A stretch of DNA of 16,532 nucleotides, taken from contig JAJZHT010000006.1 of the NCBI GenBank assembly GCA_021804455.1, positions 1-16,532 on the forward strand, in the 5' to 3' direction. Of the stretch, positions 3,342 through 16,532 are shown piece after piece (position 1 is the first letter of the stretch; each line of letters starts with the position of its first letter). The translations under genes were made by a program, and so were the position numbers. The stretch is from Pseudomonadota bacterium (GTDB taxonomy: Bacteria > Pseudomonadota > Alphaproteobacteria > Paracaedibacterales > CAIULA01). The notes under the pieces are model-generated. The model was not told where the DNA came from, did no database searches, and saw only the letters and a program-made list of their open reading frames with translations.

Positions 3342-4682
3342 CTATTTATCCTTAAGCTTGGCTTTTTTAATCAAACCTTCATATTGATGAGCCACCAAAT
3401 GCGATTGTATTTGAGCAATCGTGTCGATCGTTACACTGACCACAATCAACAAACTGGTTCCACCAAAATAAAAAGGTAACGAAACACGAGAAAGAATAAT
3501 CTCCGGTAACACACAAATTGATGCCAAGTATAAAGCCCCAACAACGGTTAATCGTGTCAAAACATAATCAAGATATTCCACTGTTTGCTGACCAGGACGA
3601 ATACCAGGAATATAAGTTCCCATCTTACGAAGATTCTCAGCCGTTTCATTAGGATTAAACATCAAAGCCGTATAGAAAAAGGCAAAAAAGATAATCAAAG
3701 AAACAAACAACGCAATGTAAACAGGATGACCATGACTGAAAACACGAGCCACAACGGCCAACCAAGAATCAGGGCTGGGACTTGAGAACCCAACAATAGT
3801 GGCTGGCAACAACAGCAAAGAAGAGGCAAAAATAGGAGGAATCACACCAGCACTATTCAATTTCAAGGGTAAATGAGTGCTTTGCGAAACGGCAGGCATA
3901 TTAGCCGCCATTTGACGCTTAGGATACTGGATGGGAATACGACGTTGCGCTTTCTCCATAAAGACAATATAGCCAATCACAGCGGCAGCCATGACCAAAA
4001 CCCCCACGATAACCACCGCAGACAAAGCTCCCTGGCGACCTAGCTCAAAAGTGTTAAAAAGAGCCTGAGGTAAGTTCGCAACGATACCAGAATAAATGAT
4101 TAAAGAAGTCCCGTTTCCAATACCGCGAGAAGTGATCTGCTCACCCAACCACATAATAAACAAGGTCCCGCCTGTTAACGTGATGACTGTTGTCAATCGA
4201 AAGATAAAACCAGGATCCAAAACTGCAGAGCCTGTATGACCAGTAATTTTTTCCAACCCTGCAGCAATACCAAAGGCCTGAATACACGCCAACAAAACTG
4301 TGCCATAACGGGTATATTGATTCAGTTTGCGCCGCCCTGATTCCCCTTCTTTCTTTAAGGCTTCCAAATGGGGAGAAACAGAGGTTAGCAACTGGACGAT
4401 AATACTCGCCGATATATAAGGCATAATGTTAAGGGAGAAAATCGTCATACGACCGATTGCACCTCCCGAAAACATATCAAGAATCCCGAGGATTCCCCCC
4501 GCATTATTACGGGTAAATTCGGCAATAATAAAAGGATTAATTCCAGGCAAAGGAACATAAGTACCAATGCGATAAACAATTAACGCCGCCAAGGTAAACC
4601 ATATACGCTTTTTTAAATCTTCCGCTTTTTTAAAAGAGGAAAAACTCACACTCGCAGCTAACTGTTCAATTGCAGACGCCAT
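3342..4682 (-). CDS. secY: Protein translocase channel subunit SecY
   Basis: The pore of the SecYEG translocon in the inner membrane. I chose the ATG at 4682 (446 residues). It gives the family start MASAIEQLAASVSF and has AGG 6 nt upstream, while the longest reading (ATG at 4742) would overlap rplO by 35 nt and add an atypical 20-residue leader. Ten hydrophobic segments are visible. Landmarks are KKRIWFTLAALIVYRIGTYVPLPG (TM1, about 24-47, then the plug region), ITSRGIGNGTSLI at 183-195, the cytoplasmic RRIPIQYPKRQ at 247-257, and YIPGIRPGQQT at 357-367, the C5 loop used by ribosome and SecA. FYFGGTSLLI (404-413) lies in the last core TM. It is the last gene of the spc block, directly followed by adk. 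Confidence 0.97.
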   Translation of the reverse strand: MASAIEQLAASVSFSSFKKAEDLKKRIWFTLAALIVYRIGTYVPLPGINPFIIAEFTRNNAGGILGILDMFSGGAIGRMTIFSLNIMPYISASIIVQLLTSVSPHLEALKKEGESGRRKLNQYTRYGTVLLACIQAFGIAAGLEKITGHTGSAVLDPGFIFRLTTVITLTGGTLFIMWLGEQITSRGIGNGTSLIIYSGIVANLPQALFNTFELGRQGALSAVVIVGVLVMAAAVIGYIVFMEKAQRRIPIQYPKRQMAANMPAVSQSTHLPLKLNSAGVIPPIFASSLLLLPATIVGFSSPSPDSWLAVVARVFSHGHPVYIALFVSLIIFFAFFYTALMFNPNETAENLRKMGTYIPGIRPGQQTVEYLDYVLTRLTVVGALYLASICVLPEIILSRVSLPFYFGGTSLLIVVSVTIDTIAQIQSHLVAHQYEGLIKKAKLKDK

Positions 4683-4707
4683 CATAAACCTGTTTAAAAA
4701 ATATCGA

Positions 4708-5169
4708 TCACTCAATAATAAGAGAACCACCAACTTTTTCAAGCAAACTTTGCGCTTTCTTACTGGAACGAGTCACAGCAATTTTCACGGCGGTCTTAGG
4801 GGAACCATTGGCAATCAAAGAAACACCCTCGATATGTTTTGGCATATAGCGTTGCTGAATCAAAAAATCCCTGTCAATTTGCTGATCCGCTTTCAAGGCA
4901 CCACTTTCCAAGATGCGATTAACTTTGTGGAAATCCAACTCATACATTGTCATACGATGCACATTCACAAACCCACGCTTTGGCAAACGACGATAAAGAG
5001 GTGTCTGACCACCCTCAAAGCCATTGATTGAAACACCAGAGCGTGCTGTTTGCCCCTTACCACCACGGCCAGAGGTTTTTCCCAAACCTGAACCAATGCC
5101 ACGACCCACCACTTTCCTTGGGCGACGTGCGCCTTCGTTGTCTTTAATTGTATTTAATTGAAACGTCAT
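4708..5169 (-). CDS. rplO: 50S ribosomal protein L15
   Basis: The ATG at 5169 gives 153 residues beginning MTFQLNTIKDNEGARR, matching the family. Longer in-frame starts (5184, 5250) would overlap rpmD and add residues with no L15 similarity. The glycine/arginine-rich N-terminal extension GRGIGSGLGKTSGRGGKGQ threads into 23S rRNA, and FEGGQTPLYRRLPKRGF is the second hallmark. The C-terminal half is the globular domain. It begins 4 nt after the rpmD stop, so translation is likely coupled, and it is followed by secY. Confidence 0.97.
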   Translation of the reverse strand: MTFQLNTIKDNEGARRPRKVVGRGIGSGLGKTSGRGGKGQTARSGVSINGFEGGQTPLYRRLPKRGFVNVHRMTMYELDFHKVNRILESGALKADQQIDRDFLIQQRYMPKHIEGVSLIANGSPKTAVKIAVTRSSKKAQSLLEKVGGSLIIE

Positions 5170-5173
5170 CTTA

Positions 5174-5392
5174 TTATCTTTCATCGACCGACTCCGAAAC
5201 AATTCGGACCATATGGGGTACTTTCGCCAATAAAGAGCGAACAATCTCATTATCCTGCAATTGTCTTACAGCATTCATTTTTCCTAATCCCAAAGACTTT
5301 AAATAAAGTTTTTGGCGACCCTGACGGCGGATAGGACTTGCATATTGCTGAACCGTGATCATTGCTTTTGAAGCTTGTTTTTTTGCTGCCAT
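5174..5392 (-). CDS. rpmD: 50S ribosomal protein L30
   Basis: Encodes 72 residues. The diagnostic core is ITVQQYASPIRRQGRQK followed by LYLKSLGLGKMNAVRQLQDN, with the closing strand PHMVRIVSE. A lysine-rich stretch precedes the core and makes the N-terminus slightly longer than in the shortest L30 proteins. L30 binds 23S rRNA near the 5S region and is dispensable in some bacteria. It lies between rpsE (21 nt) and rplO (4 nt), the standard spc position. Confidence 0.96.
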   Translation of the reverse strand: MAAKKQASKAMITVQQYASPIRRQGRQKLYLKSLGLGKMNAVRQLQDNEIVRSLLAKVPHMVRIVSESVDER

Positions 5393-5413
5393 TTTTAACT
5401 CTTCATCCTAACC

Positions 5414-5980
5414 TTAATTATTAATTTCGGCATGAGCGACCTTACCATGATTTTCATCACGACGGGCCACAATATCGCTTAGCTTTTTACCCAGTTTGGT
5501 CGCAACTTGACGCGGTGAAGAAACAGATTTTAAGGCCTCTACCGTTGCTCTAACAACATTATGATAGTTAGGTGTACCAACGGATTTACTGACCACATCA
5601 TGAAGACCCAGAGCTTCAAAAACAGCACGCATCGGACCACCCGCAATCACACCCGTTCCAGCAGGGGCTGTTCTTAAAAACACACGACTTGCACCTACAC
5701 GAGCCTGAACATCATGATGAAGGGTCCGTCCTTCACGCAAAGGAATACGCACCATCTGACGACGTGCCTTCTCAGAGGCTTTTTTAACGGCATCAGGAAC
5801 TTCACGAGCTTTACCGCTGGCATAACCAACGCGACCACGACCATCTCCCACAACAACCAGGGCAGAAAAACGTAAAGTTTTACCCCCCTTAACAACCTTG
5901 GTTACACGACGAACGCTTACCAATTTCTCAACCAGTTGTTGTTCTTCTTTTGAATTTTCATTTGCTAAAGGTCTTGCCAT
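5414..5980 (-). CDS. rpsE: 30S ribosomal protein S5
   Basis: Encodes 188 residues. The N-terminal double-stranded-RNA-binding-like domain spans about 16-74 and contains [20 protein letters not shown] and [18 protein letters not shown]. The C-terminal domain carries [21 protein letters not shown] and the [14 protein letters not shown] motif. S5 lies at the mRNA entry channel and contributes to decoding fidelity and helicase activity. The ATG at 5980 lies 9 nt after the rplR stop. The tail KVAHAEINN is lineage-specific. Ordinary in all respects. Confidence 0.98.
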
Positions 5981-8184: not shown

Positions 8185-8505
8185 TCACGACAAAACGTTG
8201 CCAGTTTTTTTAAAAAAGCGAACCTTCTGATCATCTTGCTTTTTATAACCCACACGGCCAGGTTTACCTGTTGAAGGATCCACCAAAGCCAAGTTTGAAA
8301 TATGGATTGGCAAATTTTTCTTCACAGGCCCACCAGGGTTCATAGAAGTAGGCTTTTGATTGCGCGTCACAACATTGACACCTTCAACCACAGCACGAGA
8401 TTCATCCAAAATAACTTTCGTTATATGGCCACGCTTTCCTTTATCTTTACCTGCGATAACCTGTACCAGATCACCTTTTTTAATCTTAAATTTTGGTTGT
8501 GTCAT
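8185..8505 (-). CDS. rplX: 50S ribosomal protein L24
   Basis: Encodes 106 residues. The KOW motif is KKGDLVQVIAGKDKGKRGHI (about 9-28). NVVTRNQKPTSMNPGG and PIHISNLALVDPSTGKP complete the L24 signature. L24 is an assembly-initiator protein that binds the 5' end of 23S rRNA and ends near the exit tunnel. The start ATG overlaps the rplN stop by one base (TAATG), pointing to translational coupling. Confidence 0.98.
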   Translation of the reverse strand: MTQPKFKIKKGDLVQVIAGKDKGKRGHITKVILDESRAVVEGVNVVTRNQKPTSMNPGGPVKKNLPIHISNLALVDPSTGKPGRVGYKKQDDQKVRFFKKTGNVLS

Positions 8506-8873
8506 TATAAAACCTCAGGTGCCAGTGAAATAATTTTCATATAACCAGAAGAACGTAACTCTCGGGTCACAGGACCAAAAATACGACTTCCAATCGGCTC
8601 GCCTTGCTTATTAATCAAAACAGCAGCGTTTTGATCAAAGGCAATCAAAGAACCATCCACCCTTTTAATCGCCTGTTTTGTTCTTACAATCACAGCGCGG
8701 TGAACGTCTCCTTTTTTAACTTTACCACGAGGCATCGCATCTTTAATCGACACCACAATCACATCGCCAACCGAGGCATATCTCCGTTTTGAACCACCCA
8801 AAACCTTAATACACATAACCTCTTTAGCACCGGAGTTATCAGCAACATCCAAACGTGTTTCAACCTGTATCAT
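8505..8873 (-). CDS. rplN: 50S ribosomal protein L14
   Basis: Encodes 122 residues, exactly the usual length. It begins [19 protein letters not shown], has the [20 protein letters not shown] segment and ends [20 protein letters not shown]14 forms inter-subunit bridges with 16S rRNA and is the docking site of RsfS and of release/recycling factors. It is the first gene of the spc block. The gap after rpsQ is 30 nt, with no promoter or terminator I can defend, so read-through from the S10 block is likely. Confidence 0.98.
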
Positions 8874-8903
8874 CTGCTAAGCTTTCTTTACTTTCTAATC
8901 ACT

Positions 8904-9140
8904 TTAAGCCGACTGATCCACGACAACCCATTTCTTTGTTTTCGAAATAGGGCGTGACTCAATAATACTAACACTATCTCCTGACTTATATTTATTCTCA
9001 GGATCGTGAGCCGCATAACGGCTATGACGCTTTATATACTTTTTATAAAGCGGATGCATAACATTTTTTTCAACACGCACAATAACGGTTTTATCACCTT
9101 TATCACTGACAACAGTTCCTTGCAATATACGGCGAGGCAT
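8904..9140 (-). CDS. rpsQ: 30S ribosomal protein S17
   Basis: Encodes 78 residues, an OB-fold RNA-binding protein. It starts [21 protein letters not shown] and has [19 protein letters not shown] in the long loop that penetrates 16S rRNA helix 11. It closes with [16 protein letters not shown]17 is a primary binder of the 16S 5' domain. It follows rpmC by 9 nt and is the last gene of the S10 block. Confidence 0.98.
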
Positions 9141-9149
9141 ATCTTTTCC

Positions 9150-9341
9150 TTACGCTGATTTAATCTGTTTAAGTTTCGTTTGAATCCGTGCGAAATCACG
9201 ACGACATTGACGCATCCTGGCCGTACCCGTTAGCTGACCTGTCTTAGCTTGCACTCTAAGATTCAACATTTCTTTCTTCAAATCAAGAGCATGTTGATAA
9301 AGCTCAGAAACTGTTTTATTGGCTAAATCTTGAAATTTCAC
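9150..9341 (-). CDS. rpmC: 50S ribosomal protein L29
   Basis: I place the start at the GTG at 9341, giving 63 residues beginning [14 protein letters not shown], the usual L29 length and N-terminus. A GGTGA Shine-Dalgarno-like stretch lies 5 nt upstream. Two more in-frame GTG codons (9350, 9353) would add four residues and leave no room for a ribosome-binding site after the rplP stop. The protein is two antiparallel helices; [17 protein letters not shown] and the Arg-rich second helix ([12 protein letters not shown]) are diagnostic. L29 lies at the exit tunnel beside L23 and helps form the docking site for SRP and trigger factor. Confidence 0.95.
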
Positions 9342-9354
9342 TGTCGTCACCACT

Positions 9355-9765
9355 CTATATTGTACGTTTTACAAACCTTGTTTCAATAGGCAATTTGGCC
9401 GCAGCCAAAGCAAAAGCTTTTTCAGCCACATCTGCCGCAACACCATCCAGCTCGAACATGATACGACCTGGCTTCACACGACAGACCCAAAATTCAGGAG
9501 ATCCCTTACCACTACCCATACGAACTTCGGCAGGCTTTCTGGATACCGGAACATCCGGAAATATCCGAATCCAAACACGTCCCACGCGACGGATATGACG
9601 CGTAATAGCACGACGAGCAGCTTCAATCTGCCGAGCGGTAATACGGGCAGGCTCAACAGCCTTTAATCCATAACTACCAAAACTGACAGATGTACCAGAC
9701 TTGGCCATCCCATGAATACGGCCTTTAAAAGCCTTTCTATATTTTGTTTTTTTAGGTGATAACAT
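9355..9765 (-). CDS. rplP: 50S ribosomal protein L16
   Basis: Encodes 136 residues. It starts [19 protein letters not shown] and has [23 protein letters not shown] and the closing core [16 protein letters not shown]16 lies near the A site and organises the peptidyl-transferase region and the L7/L12-stalk base. The conserved Arg in the RMGSGKG loop corresponds to the arginine hydroxylated in some bacteria; no such enzyme is in this window. The ATG at 9765 has GAGG 5 nt upstream and follows rpsC by 16 nt. Confidence 0.98.
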
Positions 9766-9781
9766 AATAGCCTCGAAAAAT

Positions 9782-10459
9782 CTAGCGATTTAAAACGTAT
9801 TCACTGGTTTTTTTATCCTGAGCCATAGGATCATGCTCTTTGATCTCACCTTTGTAAACCCACACTTTAATGCCACAGGTTCCATAGGTTGTTTTAGCAA
9901 CACCAACCCCATAATCAATATCAGAACGCAAAGTATGCAAAGGAACACGCCCTTCACGATACCATTCCATACGTGCAATCTCTGCCCCGCCTAAACGACC
10001 AGAACAATTTACACGTATTCCTAAAGCCCCCAAACGCATGGCGGATTGCATAGCGCGCTTCATGGCACGACGGAAAGAAACACGGCGTTCAATTTGCTGA
10101 GCAATTCCCTCCGCAATTAAGCGAGCATCCAGCTCTGGCTTACGAACCTCAACAATATTAATACCAACATCAGCGTTGGTCATGGCAGATAATTTCTTTT
10201 TCAGCTTTTCAATATCCGCACCCTTTTTACCAATCAAAACTCCAGGACGGGCCGTATAAATACTAAGGCGGGCTTTCTTAGCCGAACGTTCAATCAGAAC
10301 TTTCGCAACACCAGCCTGTGTCAGAGTTTTGGTAACATAATCACGAATAGCCAAATCTTGATGTAGCAAAGTGGCATAATCTCGGCCTGCGAACCACCGG
10401 GAATCCCATGTTTTGTTAATACCAAGACGCAGTCCGATAGGGTTTACTTTTTGACCCAT
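9782..10459 (-). CDS. rpsC: 30S ribosomal protein S3
   Basis: Encodes 225 residues. It begins [20 protein letters not shown]. The KH domain contains [19 protein letters not shown] (about 73-91), and the C-terminal domain has [20 protein letters not shown] and [21 protein letters not shown]3 lies at the mRNA entry pore on the 30S head and, with S4 and S5, unwinds mRNA. The tail after WVYKGEI is short ([10 protein letters not shown]..), within the range for alphaproteobacteria. It follows rplV by 5 nt. Confidence 0.98.
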
Positions 10460-10464
10460 AATAC

Positions 10465-10812
10465 TTAAACCTCTTTTTCCGCAACTTTAATACTAAGATG
10501 ACTAAAAACCTTATGAATTGACCCTGCACGCCCCTTGGCACGAGCCTGGAATCTTTTCATTTTAATGCCTGGCGTAACATACGCCTCATGAATATACAGA
10601 CGATCAACATCCATTCCATGATTATTTTCAGCATTTGCAATCGCTGATAACAAATTCTTTTTAACGTCTTTTGCTGACCGCTTCTGAGAAAAAGTCAAAA
10701 AACTTAAGGCCTTATCAACCTTCATTCCCCGAATCTTAGCCGCCAATAAATTTAATTTACGGGGACTAACACGAATCGATTTTAAAATAGCTTGAGCTGT
10801 AATTGTATCCAT
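10465..10812 (-). CDS. rplV: 50S ribosomal protein L22
   Basis: I chose the ATG at 10812 (115 residues, [19 protein letters not shown]). TAAGGG, which includes the rpsS stop codon, lies 9 nt upstream as Shine-Dalgarno. A TTG at 10821 is in frame but would sit directly on that sequence. The signature includes [19 protein letters not shown] and [15 protein letters not shown]. The beta-hairpin [18 protein letters not shown] lines the peptide exit tunnel, the region where macrolide resistance changes occur in other species. The start lies 12 nt after the rpsS stop. Confidence 0.97.
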
Positions 10813-10824
10813 GATGATCAACCC

Positions 10825-11100
10825 TTACCGTTTTGCTTTTTTATCAGCACCGTGACCATAATAGGTACGGGTCGGCGCAAACTCACCCAACTTATGCCCT
10901 ACCATATTTTCGGTAACATAAACAGGTATAAACTTGTGACCATTATGAACACCAAAAGTTACCCCAACAAACTGAGGAATAATGGTTGATCTTCTTGACC
11001 ATGTTTTTACAATTTCTTTTCTACCCGATGCTAAAACAGTCTCGGCTTTTTTAAGCAGGTAGCGGTCGAAAAAAGGACCTTTCCAGACGGATCTTGGCAC
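10825..11100 (-). CDS. rpsS: 30S ribosomal protein S19
   Basis: Encodes 91 residues. It has [18 protein letters not shown] at the start, then [22 protein letters not shown] and [15 protein letters not shown], a complete S19 signature. S19 forms a complex with S13 in the 30S head and contacts the 50S subunit. The start codon is GTG at 11100, with GGAGAG 4 nt upstream, so the choice is secure. It lies 11 nt after rplB. Confidence 0.98.
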
Positions 11101-11111
11101 TGAACTCTCCG

Positions 11112-11933
11112 TTATTTACGTCTTCTGATAATCATATTACTTGTACGCTTGTTACGGCGCGTCTTCTTACCTTTTGTAGCAATACCCCAAGGAGTGACCG
11201 GATGACGCCCCCCAGAAGTTTTTCCTTCACCACCACCATGCGGGTGATCAATCGGGTTCATAGCCACACCACGTACTGTAGGACGAACCCCTAACCAGCG
11301 CATGCGACCCGCCTTACCATAAGAGCGGTTTTGATGATCAGGATTAGAAACAGACCCTACAGTAGCACGGCATTCGCCCTTTAACAAACGAACCTCACCC
11401 GAGGACATCTTAACAATAATATGGCCTGAATCACGTCCCATAATTTGCATGTAAGAACCGGCAGAACGGGCCAATTGCCCACCTTTACCAATTTTGATCT
11501 CAACATTGTGAACAATGGTTCCCAAAGGAATGTTCTTCAACATCATGTTATTCCCAGGTTTAATATCCGCTTTTTCCGAGGAAATTACCTGATCGCCCAC
11601 TTGCAAACGTTGGGGAGCCAAAATATAACTGTACTCTCCATCTTGATACTTAATCAAAGCGATAAAAGCTGTACGATTAGGATCGTATTCGATTCTCTCC
11701 ACGACAGCGGAAACATCATATTTATTGCGCCTAAAATCAACAAGGCGATACCGGCGTTTATGGCCGCCACCTTTATGCCATGTTGTGATCCGCCCAAGAT
11801 TATTATGACCACTCTTTTCGCTAATACCCACCGTCAATGCTTTAAAAGGTTTACCCTTCCACAAACCACTTCGGTCAATATTGACAAGCTGTCTTTGAGA
11901 AGCTGTCGATGCTTTATATTTTTTCAAAGCCAT
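11112..11933 (-). CDS. rplB: 50S ribosomal protein L2
   Basis: Encodes 273 residues, full length. The N-terminal part has [21 protein letters not shown] and [18 protein letters not shown] (OB-like domain). The SH3-like domain is followed by [20 protein letters not shown], in which His230 corresponds to E. coli His229 near the peptidyl-transferase centre. The C-terminus is strongly basic. L2 is needed for subunit joining and for catalytic-centre assembly. It begins 3 nt after rplW. Confidence 0.99.
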
Positions 11934-13866: not shown

Positions 13867-15057
13867 TTATTTTACGATTTGGGAGACGACACCGGCCCCG
13901 ACGGTACGGCCGCCTTCACGAATGGCAAAACGCAATCCCTCATCCATCGCAATCGGAGCAATCAACTCAACCGTCATCGCAATGTTATCACCCGGCATCA
14001 CCATCTCAACACCGCTCGGCAAACTCACCGTCCCCGTCACGTCCGTCGTCCGAAAATAAAACTGAGGGCGATAATTCGTGAAAAACGGCGTATGACGGCC
14101 CCCTTCCTCTTTCGTCAATATATAAGCTTCCGCCTTAAACTGAGTATGCGGTGTAATCGTACCCGGCGCCGCCAAAACTTGACCACGCTCCACATCCTCT
14201 CGCTTCGTACCACGCAACAAAGCTCCAATGTTGTCACCAGCCTCACCCTGATCCAACAACTTACGAAACATCTCAACACCCGTCACCGTCGTCTTCGTCG
14301 TCGCACGTATCCCAACAATCTCAGCCTCTTCACCAACCTTAATCACTCCACGCTCAACTCGACCCGTCACAACCGTACCCCGACCCGATATCGAAAACAC
14401 ATCCTCAATCGGCATCAAAAACGGACGATCCTTCGCACGCTCAGGTTGCGGTATCGTCTCATCCACAGCTTCCATCAACTTCAAAATCGCATCACGACCC
14501 ATCTCAGGATTCCGATCCTCCAACGCACACAACGCCGAACCCCGTATCACAGGAATCGTATCCCCAGGAAAACCATAACTCGACAACAATTCACGAACCT
14601 CAAGCTCCACCAAATCCGCCAGCTCCGAATCGTCCACCATATCTATCTTATTCATAAACACAACCAACGCCGGTACCCCAACCTGACGCGCTAACAAAAT
14701 ATGCTCCCGAGTCTGAGGCATCGGACCATCCGCCGCCGATACCACCAATATCGCACCGTCCATCTGCGCCGCCCCCGTAATCATGTTCTTCACATAGTCC
14801 GCGTGACCAGGACAATCAACGTGCGCATAGTGACGCTTATCCGTCTCATACTCAACGTGCGCCGTCGAAATCGTAATACCTCGCGCCTTCTCCTCAGGCG
14901 CCTTATCAATCTGATCGTACGCCATAAAATTCGCCTTCCCGCTCTCAGCCAAAACTTTCGTAATCGCCGCCGTCAAACTCGTCTTACCATGGTCCACGTG
15001 ACCAATCGTTCCTATGTTGCAATGCGGCTTAACCCGCTCATACTTCGCCTTCGACAT
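13867..15057 (-). CDS. tuf: Elongation factor Tu
   Basis: The GTPase that delivers aminoacyl-tRNA to the ribosomal A site; 396 residues, full length. G-domain motifs: GHVDHGKT (19-26), switch I RGITIS (59-64), DCPGH with catalytic His85 (81-85), NKID (136-139) and GSAL (173-176). Domains 2 and 3 are complete through the C-terminal [11 protein letters not shown]. The ATG at 15057 has an AGGGG/GCGGA-rich ribosome-binding region about 9 nt upstream. Codon use differs from its neighbours: codons end mostly in G or T. In 397 codons only one (TTA, Leu122) belongs to the set TTA/CTA/TCA. It lies 75 nt after tRNA-Gly. No fus, rpsG or rpsL precede it, so this is not the str-operon copy. Confidence 0.99.
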
Positions 15058-15132: not shown

Positions 15133-15206
15133 TGGAGCGGGTGATGGGAATCGAACCCACATAGCCAGCTTGGAAGGCTGGAGCTTTACCACTAAGCTAC
15201 ACCCGC
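15133..15206 (-). tRNA. tRNA-Gly (anticodon UCC)
   Basis: A complete 74-nt cloverleaf including an encoded CCA end. The acceptor stem is GCGGGTG/CACCCGC, followed by a 4-bp D stem (GCTT/AAGC). The anticodon stem CCAGC/GCTGG has loop CTTCCAA (anticodon TCC), and the T arm is GTGGG-TTCGATT-CCCAT. The discriminator is U, as expected for bacterial tRNA-Gly. It lies 6 nt after the tRNA-Tyr remnant and 75 nt ahead of tuf, in the conserved Tyr-Gly-tuf order. Confidence 0.97.
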
Positions 15207-15212
15207 ATATCT

Positions 15213-15270
15213 TGGTGGAAGGAGTAGGATTCGAACCTACGTAGACATACGTCGGCAGATTTACAGTCTG
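15213..15270 (-). pseudogene. tRNA-Tyr 3' fragment (anticodon GUA), cut in the anticodon stem
   Basis: The 3' two-thirds of a tRNA-Tyr is intact. It has anticodon loop CTGTAAA with GTA, stem 3' strand TCTGC, a long class-II variable arm, T arm GTAGG-TTCGAAT-CCTAC, acceptor 3' strand TCCTTCC, discriminator A and CCA. On the 5' side the match stops after CAGA of the anticodon stem. The next base breaks the stem, and no D arm or acceptor strand (GGAAGGA expected) exists anywhere upstream to 15437. This gene copy therefore cannot make a tRNA by itself. The breakpoint at a symmetric anticodon stem-loop, next to an integrase, indicates an attachment site. Confidence 0.88.
15213..15270. other. Presumed attachment site (att) of the integrative element
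   Basis: Tyrosine integrases often use the anticodon stem-loop of a tRNA gene as crossover site, with the two stem strands as inverted core-binding sites. Here CAGA-CTGTAAA-TCTG (15256-15270 on the complement) is that symmetric core. The element's own att copy would have replaced the lost half at the other end. A direct repeat of up to this 58-bp segment is predicted at the distal end of the element, outside the window. Confidence 0.7.
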
Positions 15271-15294
15271 AACTACTACCAATCACCTAGAACT

Positions 15295-15325
15295 AGTATA
15301 TACCTCGAAAAACTAACCTACGCAA
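15295..15325 (-). promoter_or_regulatory. Candidate sigma70-type promoter at the element junction
   Basis: On the minus strand TTGCGT (15325-15320) is followed after 17 nt by TATATA (15302-15297), or after 19 nt by TATACT (15300-15295; five of six consensus bases). It would start transcription near 15290, just ahead of the tRNA-Tyr fragment, tRNA-Gly and tuf. The -35 box matches only three of six consensus bases and AT-rich DNA yields such matches by chance, so this is a candidate only. Confidence 0.3.
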
Positions 15326-15408
15326 GAGTTTCGAAGTGTTTTTTTAAATTTCATTCTCCTTAATTCTTCTAGAAAGTTGCTTTTATAACAGATTAAATGG
15401 TAGAACTA

Positions 15409-15423
15409 TGGTAAATTTTACCA
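15409..15423. promoter_or_regulatory. Perfect palindrome just upstream of the integrase gene
   Basis: TGGTAAA-T-TTTACCA: two perfect 7-base arms around one central base, ending 14 nt before the integrase GTG and overlapping the start of its presumed ribosome-binding region. Position and symmetry suit an operator for a dimeric regulator (excisionase, phage repressor or the integrase itself). No protein that would bind it is identified in this window. Confidence 0.4.
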
Positions 15424-15437
15424 GAAGACTTTAAACT

Positions 15438-16532
15438 GTGCCAAAATTAACTAAAGCGATCATAGATTATAGCTCTCCAAAAGAAAAGAATTATATCATC
15501 TGGGATACGGAGATCAAAGGGTTTGGGTGTCAGATTTTAAAAAGTGGAAGCAAAAAAACATACGTCTTTTATTATTGGTCACCTCTTACCAAAAAGAAGG
15601 GATATATCAAAATTGGCTGCCACGGAAACATTACTGTTGATTTTGCCAGGAATGCAGCCAAGAAGCTAGCTGCTACTGTTGCCTCAGGCATTGATCCAAA
15701 AAAAGAGAAAGAAGAGAAAATACTAGAAGAAAAACAGTCCATCCTTTTTTCTGATTTCTTTGATGTCTTCAAAAACAAACATATCCTTGTTGCTTACAAG
15801 GACAAAGGAAGGAATAATGTAAATTATACTAAAACTCACATTCTTCCTTTTTTTGGTCAAAAAAGATTAGACGCTATTACTTCTAAAGACATTCGAGATT
15901 TTCTTGACTCAATGGCTCATATAACCACCACAGCCAATCGCTGTTTTGCTTTGTTAAGCATGGCTTTCAAAAAAGCGGAAGATTGGGGATATTTACCCCC
16001 TCGAAACAATCCTTGCACAGGAGTGAACAAATATAAGGAAAACAAGAAACAACGCTTTTTAAATGACACTGAACTGAAAAGACTTGAAGATTCATTAATA
16101 CAGCAGCTTAAAGAACAATCTTCCTCTTACTGTACTGTTAATGCAATTTTCCTAGCATTATATACAGGTTGTAGAATCGGAGAAATTTTGAACCTAAAAT
16201 GGGAAAATGTTCATATAAAAGATCGTTATATTCATTTGCCAGATACGAAGACTGGAGAAGGCGCTCGCCCCTTAAATCAAAAAGCTATTGATCTACTAAG
16301 TTCCATGATTCGTAAGGAAGATAATCCTTATGTTTTTTATGGTAAAATCCCTAATCAGCCAATTAGTGAAGTCAAAGCAGCTTGGAAGACCATTTTAAAG
16401 AGGGCTGGCATTAAAGACTTCCGTATTCACGATCTCCGTCATTCTTTTGCCAGCTTTGCCTTAAAGAAGGGTGTGCCCCTTGTTCATGTCTCCAAACTCC
16501 TAGGTCATCGCAATATTGCCACCACCATGCGC
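15438..16532 (+). CDS. P4-type tyrosine recombinase/integrase, C-terminus cut by window end
   Basis: 365 codons are open to the window edge. The GTG at 15438 is the only reasonable start: an in-frame TAA lies two codons upstream and the next Met is residue 159. Residues about 1-95 form the arm-type DNA-binding domain of P4-like integrases (DTEIKGFG.., then LGxxG-like IGCHGNITVDFARNAAKKLA and GIDP). About 102-195 is the SAM-like core-binding domain. The catalytic domain follows with Arg246 (TGCRIGEI), Lys271 (DTKTGEG), His331 and Arg334 (RIHDLRHSFAS) and His357 (LLGHRNIATTMR). The nucleophilic Tyr is expected immediately after the last visible residue. No frameshift or missing visible catalytic residue, so it looks functional as far as it goes. 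It reads away from the att site, opposite to the ribosomal operon. Ribosome-binding site is weak (AGAAG). Confidence 0.95.
   Translation, partial: MPKLTKAIIDYSSPKEKNYIIWDTEIKGFGCQILKSGSKKTYVFYYWSPLTKKKGYIKIGCHGNITVDFARNAAKKLAATVASGIDPKKEKEEKILEEKQSILFSDFFDVFKNKHILVAYKDKGRNNVNYTKTHILPFFGQKRLDAITSKDIRDFLDSMAHITTTANRCFALLSMAFKKAEDWGYLPPRNNPCTGVNKYKENKKQRFLNDTELKRLEDSLIQQLKEQSSSYCTVNAIFLALYTGCRIGEILNLKWENVHIKDRYIHLPDTKTGEGARPLNQKAIDLLSSMIRKEDNPYVFYGKIPNQPISEVKAAWKTILKRAGIKDFRIHDLRHSFASFALKKGVPLVHVSKLLGHRNIATTMR

Follow-up and report, generated by a model that had tools for sequence, protein, structure and literature searches.

How did the tRNA-Tyr gene at this locus come to be divided, and where would a working copy be encoded? 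The window, which is the whole stretch of DNA analyzed (16,532 nucleotides), is the entire contig C87 of a draft genome of 1.2 Mb (174 contigs, 83.87% complete) and contains the 3' part of tRNA-Tyr(GTA) beside a tyrosine integrase gene. We consider it highly probable (roughly 90%) that an element has integrated at the anticodon loop of tRNA-Tyr and that the window holds its integrase-proximal att end, with a restored tRNA-Tyr expected at the far end. According to this explanation, the tyrosine integrase of the element, which is probably a prophage or a phage-like island, would insert it into tRNA-Tyr by exchanging strands within the anticodon loop or the stem that closes it, at cleavage positions that we infer. 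The 3' half of the host gene would thereby be displaced and would stay beside tRNA-Gly and tuf, at the integrase end of the element, while the element's own tRNA-Tyr 3' half, at the other end, would fuse to the host 5' half and yield a working gene.

The displaced 3' part comprises 58 nt on the minus strand (15213..15270), from position 28 of the anticodon stem to the CCA end, and holds CAGA, the loop, the anticodon GTA, the variable arm, the T arm, and CCA. Against RF00005 it gives a weak match of 16.7 bits, which is under the cut-off, and ARAGORN called only an intact tRNA-Gly(TCC) (15133..15206, minus strand) in the window, but not tRNA-Tyr. Nevertheless, 55 of the 58 positions are identical to the gene of G006, a genome of the same genus, and 57 are identical in L074 and L097; chance similarity was dropped as an explanation in view of this agreement. 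A group I intron in the anticodon loop was dropped as well, with an integrase ORF following the fragment and the genes of relatives being continuous. In the window, identity to tRNA-Tyr ends at tRNA position 28: 6 nt 5' of the anticodon match, and then 5 of 24 positions agree with the tRNA-Tyr 5' half, which is about chance. The same boundary emerged from a search with a 386-bp query reaching from tuf to the tRNA-Tyr fragment, which matched 41 of the 42 genomes of the order, own genome included. Outside the own genome, 34 rows of this search reach the anticodon, 31 of which end at window position 15270, 2 at 15271, and 1 at 15268, the last corresponding to contig C92 of G020, itself a fragment; two further short rows end at 15241. 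The description given by the sequence-only reading, a perfect-looking 3' part ending after CAGA, no 5' half at the locus, and then an integrase, thus held up, with the integrase ORF beginning at 15438. The stretch GACT-GTA-AATC (15258..15268, minus strand), which consists of the anticodon loop and two closing pairs, is likely the overlap or core region, with putative cut sites.

On the chromosomal side, the fragment is flanked by the intact tRNA-Gly and by tuf (EF-Tu; 13867..15057, minus strand; a 396-aa ORF named from its sequence), and this flank is conserved: in 17 of the 23 rows joining tRNA-Gly and tRNA-Tyr, the match extends into tuf. Intact tRNA-Tyr was present in 24 of 29 fetched loci, from 24 genomes of the same order, and tRNA-Gly adjoins it in 23 of these 24. 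The loci without intact tRNA-Tyr (L090, L096, and L098 to L100) all belong to the genus g7; by separate match, four of the five g7 genomes carry tRNA-Tyr elsewhere, and none was among the matches listed for the fifth, G022. At the unoccupied site of G006, the order is Xaa-Pro aminopeptidase, tRNA-Tyr, tRNA-Gly, tuf (names from sequence). The only aminopeptidase homologue found in the own genome has 51% identity, covers residues 2-280 of 462, and is cut by the end of contig C117. If the aminopeptidase is the neighbor here as well, the stretch with the restored tRNA-Tyr would therefore be unassembled; since the upstream neighbor of tRNA-Tyr in G002 and G004 differs from that in G006, taking C117 for the far flank of the element is only a guess.

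A second copy of the segment, which the sequence-only reading had proposed to look for in the full genome, was not present in the assembly, while relatives with an intact locus were found. Specifically, the 14-base anticodon-loop pattern AGACTGTAAATCTG (≤1 mismatch) occurs a single time in the genome, at the window site, and intact tRNA-Tyr is therefore absent from this 84%-complete assembly. Neither of the outcomes that would have spoken against the proposal was seen, i.e., an intact tRNA-Tyr unlinked to any element or relatives with the same truncated fragment but no integrase.

The integrase gene (15438..16532, plus strand, GTG start) is cut by the contig end, leaving 365 of about 386 aa, 21 residues fewer than the 386-aa copy on contig C80, to which it is 85% identical. 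Pfam domains Arm-DNA-bind_3, SAM-like, and Phage_integrase were matched over curated cut-offs, and the frame stays open up to the contig end with conserved residues present. The contig ends 13 bp past a stretch of 77 bp that is identical in the C80 integrase gene, and we infer that the assembly broke at this shared repeat. Among homologues at E <= 1e-40 (1459 in total), the closest genus-named relative within the 120 listed belongs to Caedimonas (order Holosporales; 61% identity). Membership in Rickettsia, a genus in which the gene order of the flank is known, was not established. Between the junction and the integrase start lies the integrase-proximal arm of the element (15271..15437), which was aligned in a set of nine integrase-side arms and, from 15298 onward, shares 69% identity with the C80 arm. 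A pattern search located in it a putative arm-type repeat pair, TTTACCATAG-TTCTACCATT (15396..15415, minus strand), and similar pairs occur in the arms of relatives as well as 3' of intact tRNAs in G018, in G020, and on contig C107 of the own genome. With up to 3 mismatches, the pattern gave 15 matches compared to 21 in a reversed control and was thus no better than the control; therefore, only four matches with 1-2 mismatches were used, without a separate control. These pairs may function as integrase arm sites.

The own genome contains a closely analogous case. On contig C80, the related integrase adjoins a 3' half of tRNA-Phe that breaks off at the anticodon stem-loop, and an intact tRNA-Phe is located on contig C108, 164 bp from the contig end. 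Together with the 24 intact loci in relatives, this analogue supports the earlier proposal of a crossover at the anticodon loop by a tyrosine integrase. Directly after its CCA, tRNA-Phe on C108 is followed by DNA that shares 85% identity over 60 nt with the DNA behind tRNA-Thr(CGT) of C107 (61.7 bits with blastn at word size 7; the match is missed at word size 11). The alignment score of these flanks is 36.5, compared to a mean of 7.5 and a maximum of 18 in 2000 shuffles; in a table of 34 tRNA 3' flanks, in which some tRNAs were entered twice and flanks below 60 nt were dropped, no other flank scored above 12 when aligned with the Thr flank. We read the C108 and C107 flanks as probable far arms of two elements of one kind. 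About 50 bp after tRNA-Thr(CGT), C107 carries the pair TCTTCCGTATTTCTACCAAT, and its arm, used as a genome-search query, picked out the far arm of G018 (E 0.002). The C108 flank had no TTCTACC pair in a pattern search, was not listed in the genome search with the C107 arm, and did not resemble the G018 far arm, with 1041 of 2000 shuffles scoring as well. The C107 far arm also had a 40-base match (82%, E 2e-4) at G000:C122:11911-11954, away from known tRNA 3' ends. Using cox2 synteny as a test for the unoccupied tRNA-Phe site revealed no tRNA beside cox2 in the loci of 29 relatives.

As separate observations, a gene for a protein with ankyrin repeats is located past the C80 integrase (L005, 1-651) and may be cargo, and a tRNA-Thr(TGT) 3' half is found on contig C63 (L007, 11041-11109), with an intact copy on C126. 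The C63 half is near a large relaxase-like ORF (named from sequence), and no relative of the window integrase was found on this contig; the half may belong to a different integrated element. Across 393 kb of own-genome loci (overlaps included), no prophage structural genes of the G018 type were found, and apart from integrases, only a transporter-like ORF was matched.

Both tRNA copies can be seen in relatives. In G018, a tRNA-Lys(CTT) half and an integrase 74% identical to that of the window (C1:28742) are separated by 41.3 kb from an intact tRNA-Lys(CTT) (C1:69831-69906). The last 47 nt of the two copies are identical, the intact copy is in the predicted orientation, and its CCA is followed by a TTCTACCGTATTTCTACCATT pair resembling the pairs upstream of integrases. 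Nine of ten ORFs tested from this element match phage families with a named role, either clearly (head, tail fibre, portal, terminase, primase/helicase, helicase, Sak4-like) or weakly, at E about 2e-4 (amidase, tail protein); one matches nothing. It should be noted that the integrase-side copy in G018 departs from a clean half more than the window copy does, as it matches the tRNA at 16 of 22 further positions 5' of the anticodon, with a 95.7% match over tRNA positions 8-76 and 39.2 bits against RF00005. Because of this 5' match, an integrase side may carry tRNA-like 5' sequence or be a decayed whole copy. Regarding the sequence upstream of the G018 integrase (L051 and L103), attP may have captured a whole tRNA, the 5' part of which is decaying.

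In G020, a tRNA-Tyr 3' half on contig C92 is identical at 56 of 56 positions to the intact tRNA-Tyr on a separate contig, C56, where a TTCTACC repeat pair, as in far-type arms, follows the CCA. C92 starts with an integrase-side arm that shares 83% identity over 157 nt with the arm of a relative; because the contig begins inside this arm, the expected adjoining integrase falls off it. Finally, UBA8987 (L038) carries on one contig a tRNA-Arg(CCT) half (4051-4097), an integrase, and an intact tRNA-Arg(CCT) (5443-5519). Two positions distinguish the 3' halves from each other; we read them as a pair in the T stem, as would be expected for different origins. This locus spans about 1.5 kb (4051-5519) and may be a minimal element or one of which only the integrase is left. 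A far-end candidate in G028, chosen from the tRNAs listed, was rejected, as the downstream tRNA is tRNA-Val and not the expected tRNA-Thr(CGT), and 11 fragment loci, on pieces of 3.4 to 19.9 kb, contained nothing but the one tRNA half. Of the earlier proposal that this is a non-restored att end with the working gene at the far side of the element, the first part was supported here and the second in G018, in UBA8987, and, on two contigs, in G020; the own-genome copy was not in the assembly. By analogy, a restored tRNA-Tyr and the element cargo would also be present in the own genome.

These relatives also bear on the possibility that tRNA-Tyr is not rebuilt at all and that the element instead carries a complete tRNA-Tyr that covers the loss. 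Mycobacterial phages with such a tRNA-dependent lysogeny are described, their attP and attB sharing about 10 bp (PMC10865867), and here the shared 5' identity is also short, at 6 nt before the anticodon, with the far end being unassembled. However, the intact tRNA-Tyr of G020 is identical to the fragment on C92 in its 3' half and is followed, past the CCA, by an element-type arm, and the intact copies of G018 and UBA8987 are found beyond the integrase, oriented as restoration would predict, which makes a separately supplied tRNA very unlikely. We also regard as highly improbable that the locus is a dead remnant, having lost the 5' half through the element or through a deletion, with little of the element left and tRNA-Tyr provided by a copy elsewhere. 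While the incomplete integrase in the window and the lack of an intact gene in the assembly would fit such a remnant, the integrase frame has no stop before the contig end and retains conserved residues, and the truncation could be explained by the contig ending just past an exact stretch common to the other integrase copy. Furthermore, the fragment is like that of relatives at 55-57 of 58 positions and has therefore undergone little decay, and within the 42-genome search, two anticodon-covering tRNA-Tyr rows were found in no genome except G020, where one of them is the fragment.

Finally, a chimera, with the tRNA-Gly/tuf side misjoined to the integrase side, could in principle arise in a draft fragmented into 174 contigs with related integrase copies. 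Yet, the junction lies at a tRNA anticodon stem-loop, and junctions of the same type occur at other tRNAs in other assemblies, and at tRNA-Tyr itself in G020, so that a misassembly is hardly credible. Under the preferred reading, integration with restoration of tRNA-Tyr at the far end, strong selection against imprecise loss of the element, as suggested earlier, is plausible. If the sole working tRNA-Tyr is rebuilt by the element, host viability would be tied to precise excision.

Relatives of the integrase were collected at E <= 1e-60, which gave 32 places in 15 of the 42 genomes, own included. The survey covers 31 loci, i.e., 30 of these places (two had no locus) and L038. The window row and L038 were assigned by eye, since the script had picked the neighboring tRNA-Gly and left out the tRNA belonging to the locus. 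A tRNA 3' half pointing away from the integrase gene was present at 17 of the 31 loci, and an intact tRNA running into it, with 142-167 nt in between, at 8; at the remaining 6, no tRNA piece was detected. Fourteen of the 17 halves start at tRNA positions 28-31 (12 of 15 measured by script, plus the window at 28 and L038 at 30), a start that bounds only the 5' side of the crossover; the others measured start at 25 (two) and 8 (G018). The form GAYT-NNN-AATC surrounds the anticodon in 14 of the 17 halves (not Asp, Ser(TGA), or Met), 1 of the 8 intact-type loci, and 7 of 32 distinct intact tRNAs of the own genome. This enrichment at the junctions is suggestive only, because the loci share ancestry and conservation is inherent to tRNA loops. 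Close integrase relatives at L117 (contig C114, 12761-13723) and L041 have no tRNA piece at the usual distance and perhaps occupy secondary, non-tRNA sites.

In total, 16 isoacceptors are represented among the 25 integrase loci with a visible tRNA, and even within the window's own subclade of six integrases, the four visible targets are Phe, Leu(TAA), Arg(ACG), and Tyr. Both att polarities occur within one integrase family. On the tree of the 31 integrases, they need 4 changes, all forced by well-supported branches, a count that leaves out the 6 rows without a tRNA (if these are scored as a third label, A requires 6 and B 4); long branches are a warning on the deeper part of the tree. Compared to a mean of 7.0 changes in shuffles, polarity is therefore also clustered on the tree. 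L069 and L070, which have opposite att polarity, share 47% identity in the N-terminal and 93% in the C-terminal part. Moreover, the integrases of L066 and L067 are each 99% identical over residues 1-90, in the N-terminal arm-binding domain, to the minus-strand integrase of L201, an IMG/VR contig, and their C-terminal parts are 98% and 60% identical to it. These few sequences suggest that the integrases are mosaics in which arm-binding and catalytic domains have recombined. Since the att site abuts the 5' end of the integrase gene, one crossover inside the gene would swap the att module together with the arm domain. As a tentative model, which we hold to be possible but rather doubtful, the integrases might read a generic anticodon stem-loop (GAYT-anticodon-AATC) with the anticodon left free, so that a lineage could hop among tRNA genes, while the att module (polarity, arms, and arm-binding domain) would be exchanged as a block against the catalytic domains by recombination inside the integrase gene.

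Viral contigs yielded no match when scanned with one integrase, with the tRNA-Tyr half, or with the junction, and 9 loci when scanned with an alignment. On L201, two integrases are arranged head to head around a single tRNA-Gln(TTG) 3' half (8448-11164), and, by eye, like phage genes flank both sides. Taking this half for an attP was rejected in view of the two integrases and similar flanking genes, which apparently represent two same-family prophages adjoining at one tRNA gene. A search of named phages returned 32 records, the best-ranked being 34% identical.

The window locus is a tDNA island with an anticodon-centered att site, an insertion kind that is already known. Less ordinary are the 16 isoacceptors and the two att polarities in one integrase family, which provide a natural series on target change with the sub-site kept. 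Furthermore, where genomes of this order are fragmented, such integration can account for contig breaks and for tRNA genes that seem to be missing. Among the literature records listed, nothing on the integrase group of the window stood out, which is not proof of absence.

Integrase subfamilies reportedly prefer particular sub-sites in tRNA genes (Williams 2002, NAR 30:866). In a similar way, the integrase group described here appears to keep to the anticodon loop while changing the tRNA gene, and it additionally has both att polarities. The Islander set holds 3919 tDNA islands, 3760 with a 3' fragment and 2083 anticodon-centered (PMC4383910). The window shares with these islands the tyrosine integrase, the split tRNA gene, the displaced 3' fragment, and the anticodon-centered site; unlike them, its island is not delimitable, as the far end lies outside the assembly. 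The passages on prophage regions in a Holosporales paper name no tRNA target (PMC9992710). Archaeal integrases are described to diversify their targets among tRNA genes, with 14 cited for the suicidal integrases of pT26-2-related plasmids (PMC8371274). Here, too, related enzymes use different tRNA genes; however, in contrast to the archaeal case, the integrases are bacterial, and the integrase gene lies beside the att site and is not cut by it. Finally, as in the phages with tRNA-dependent lysogeny (PMC10865867), an essential tRNA gene is split by a tyrosine integrase at a short common core, but the analogues found in this study appear to rebuild the tRNA rather than to supply a separate one.
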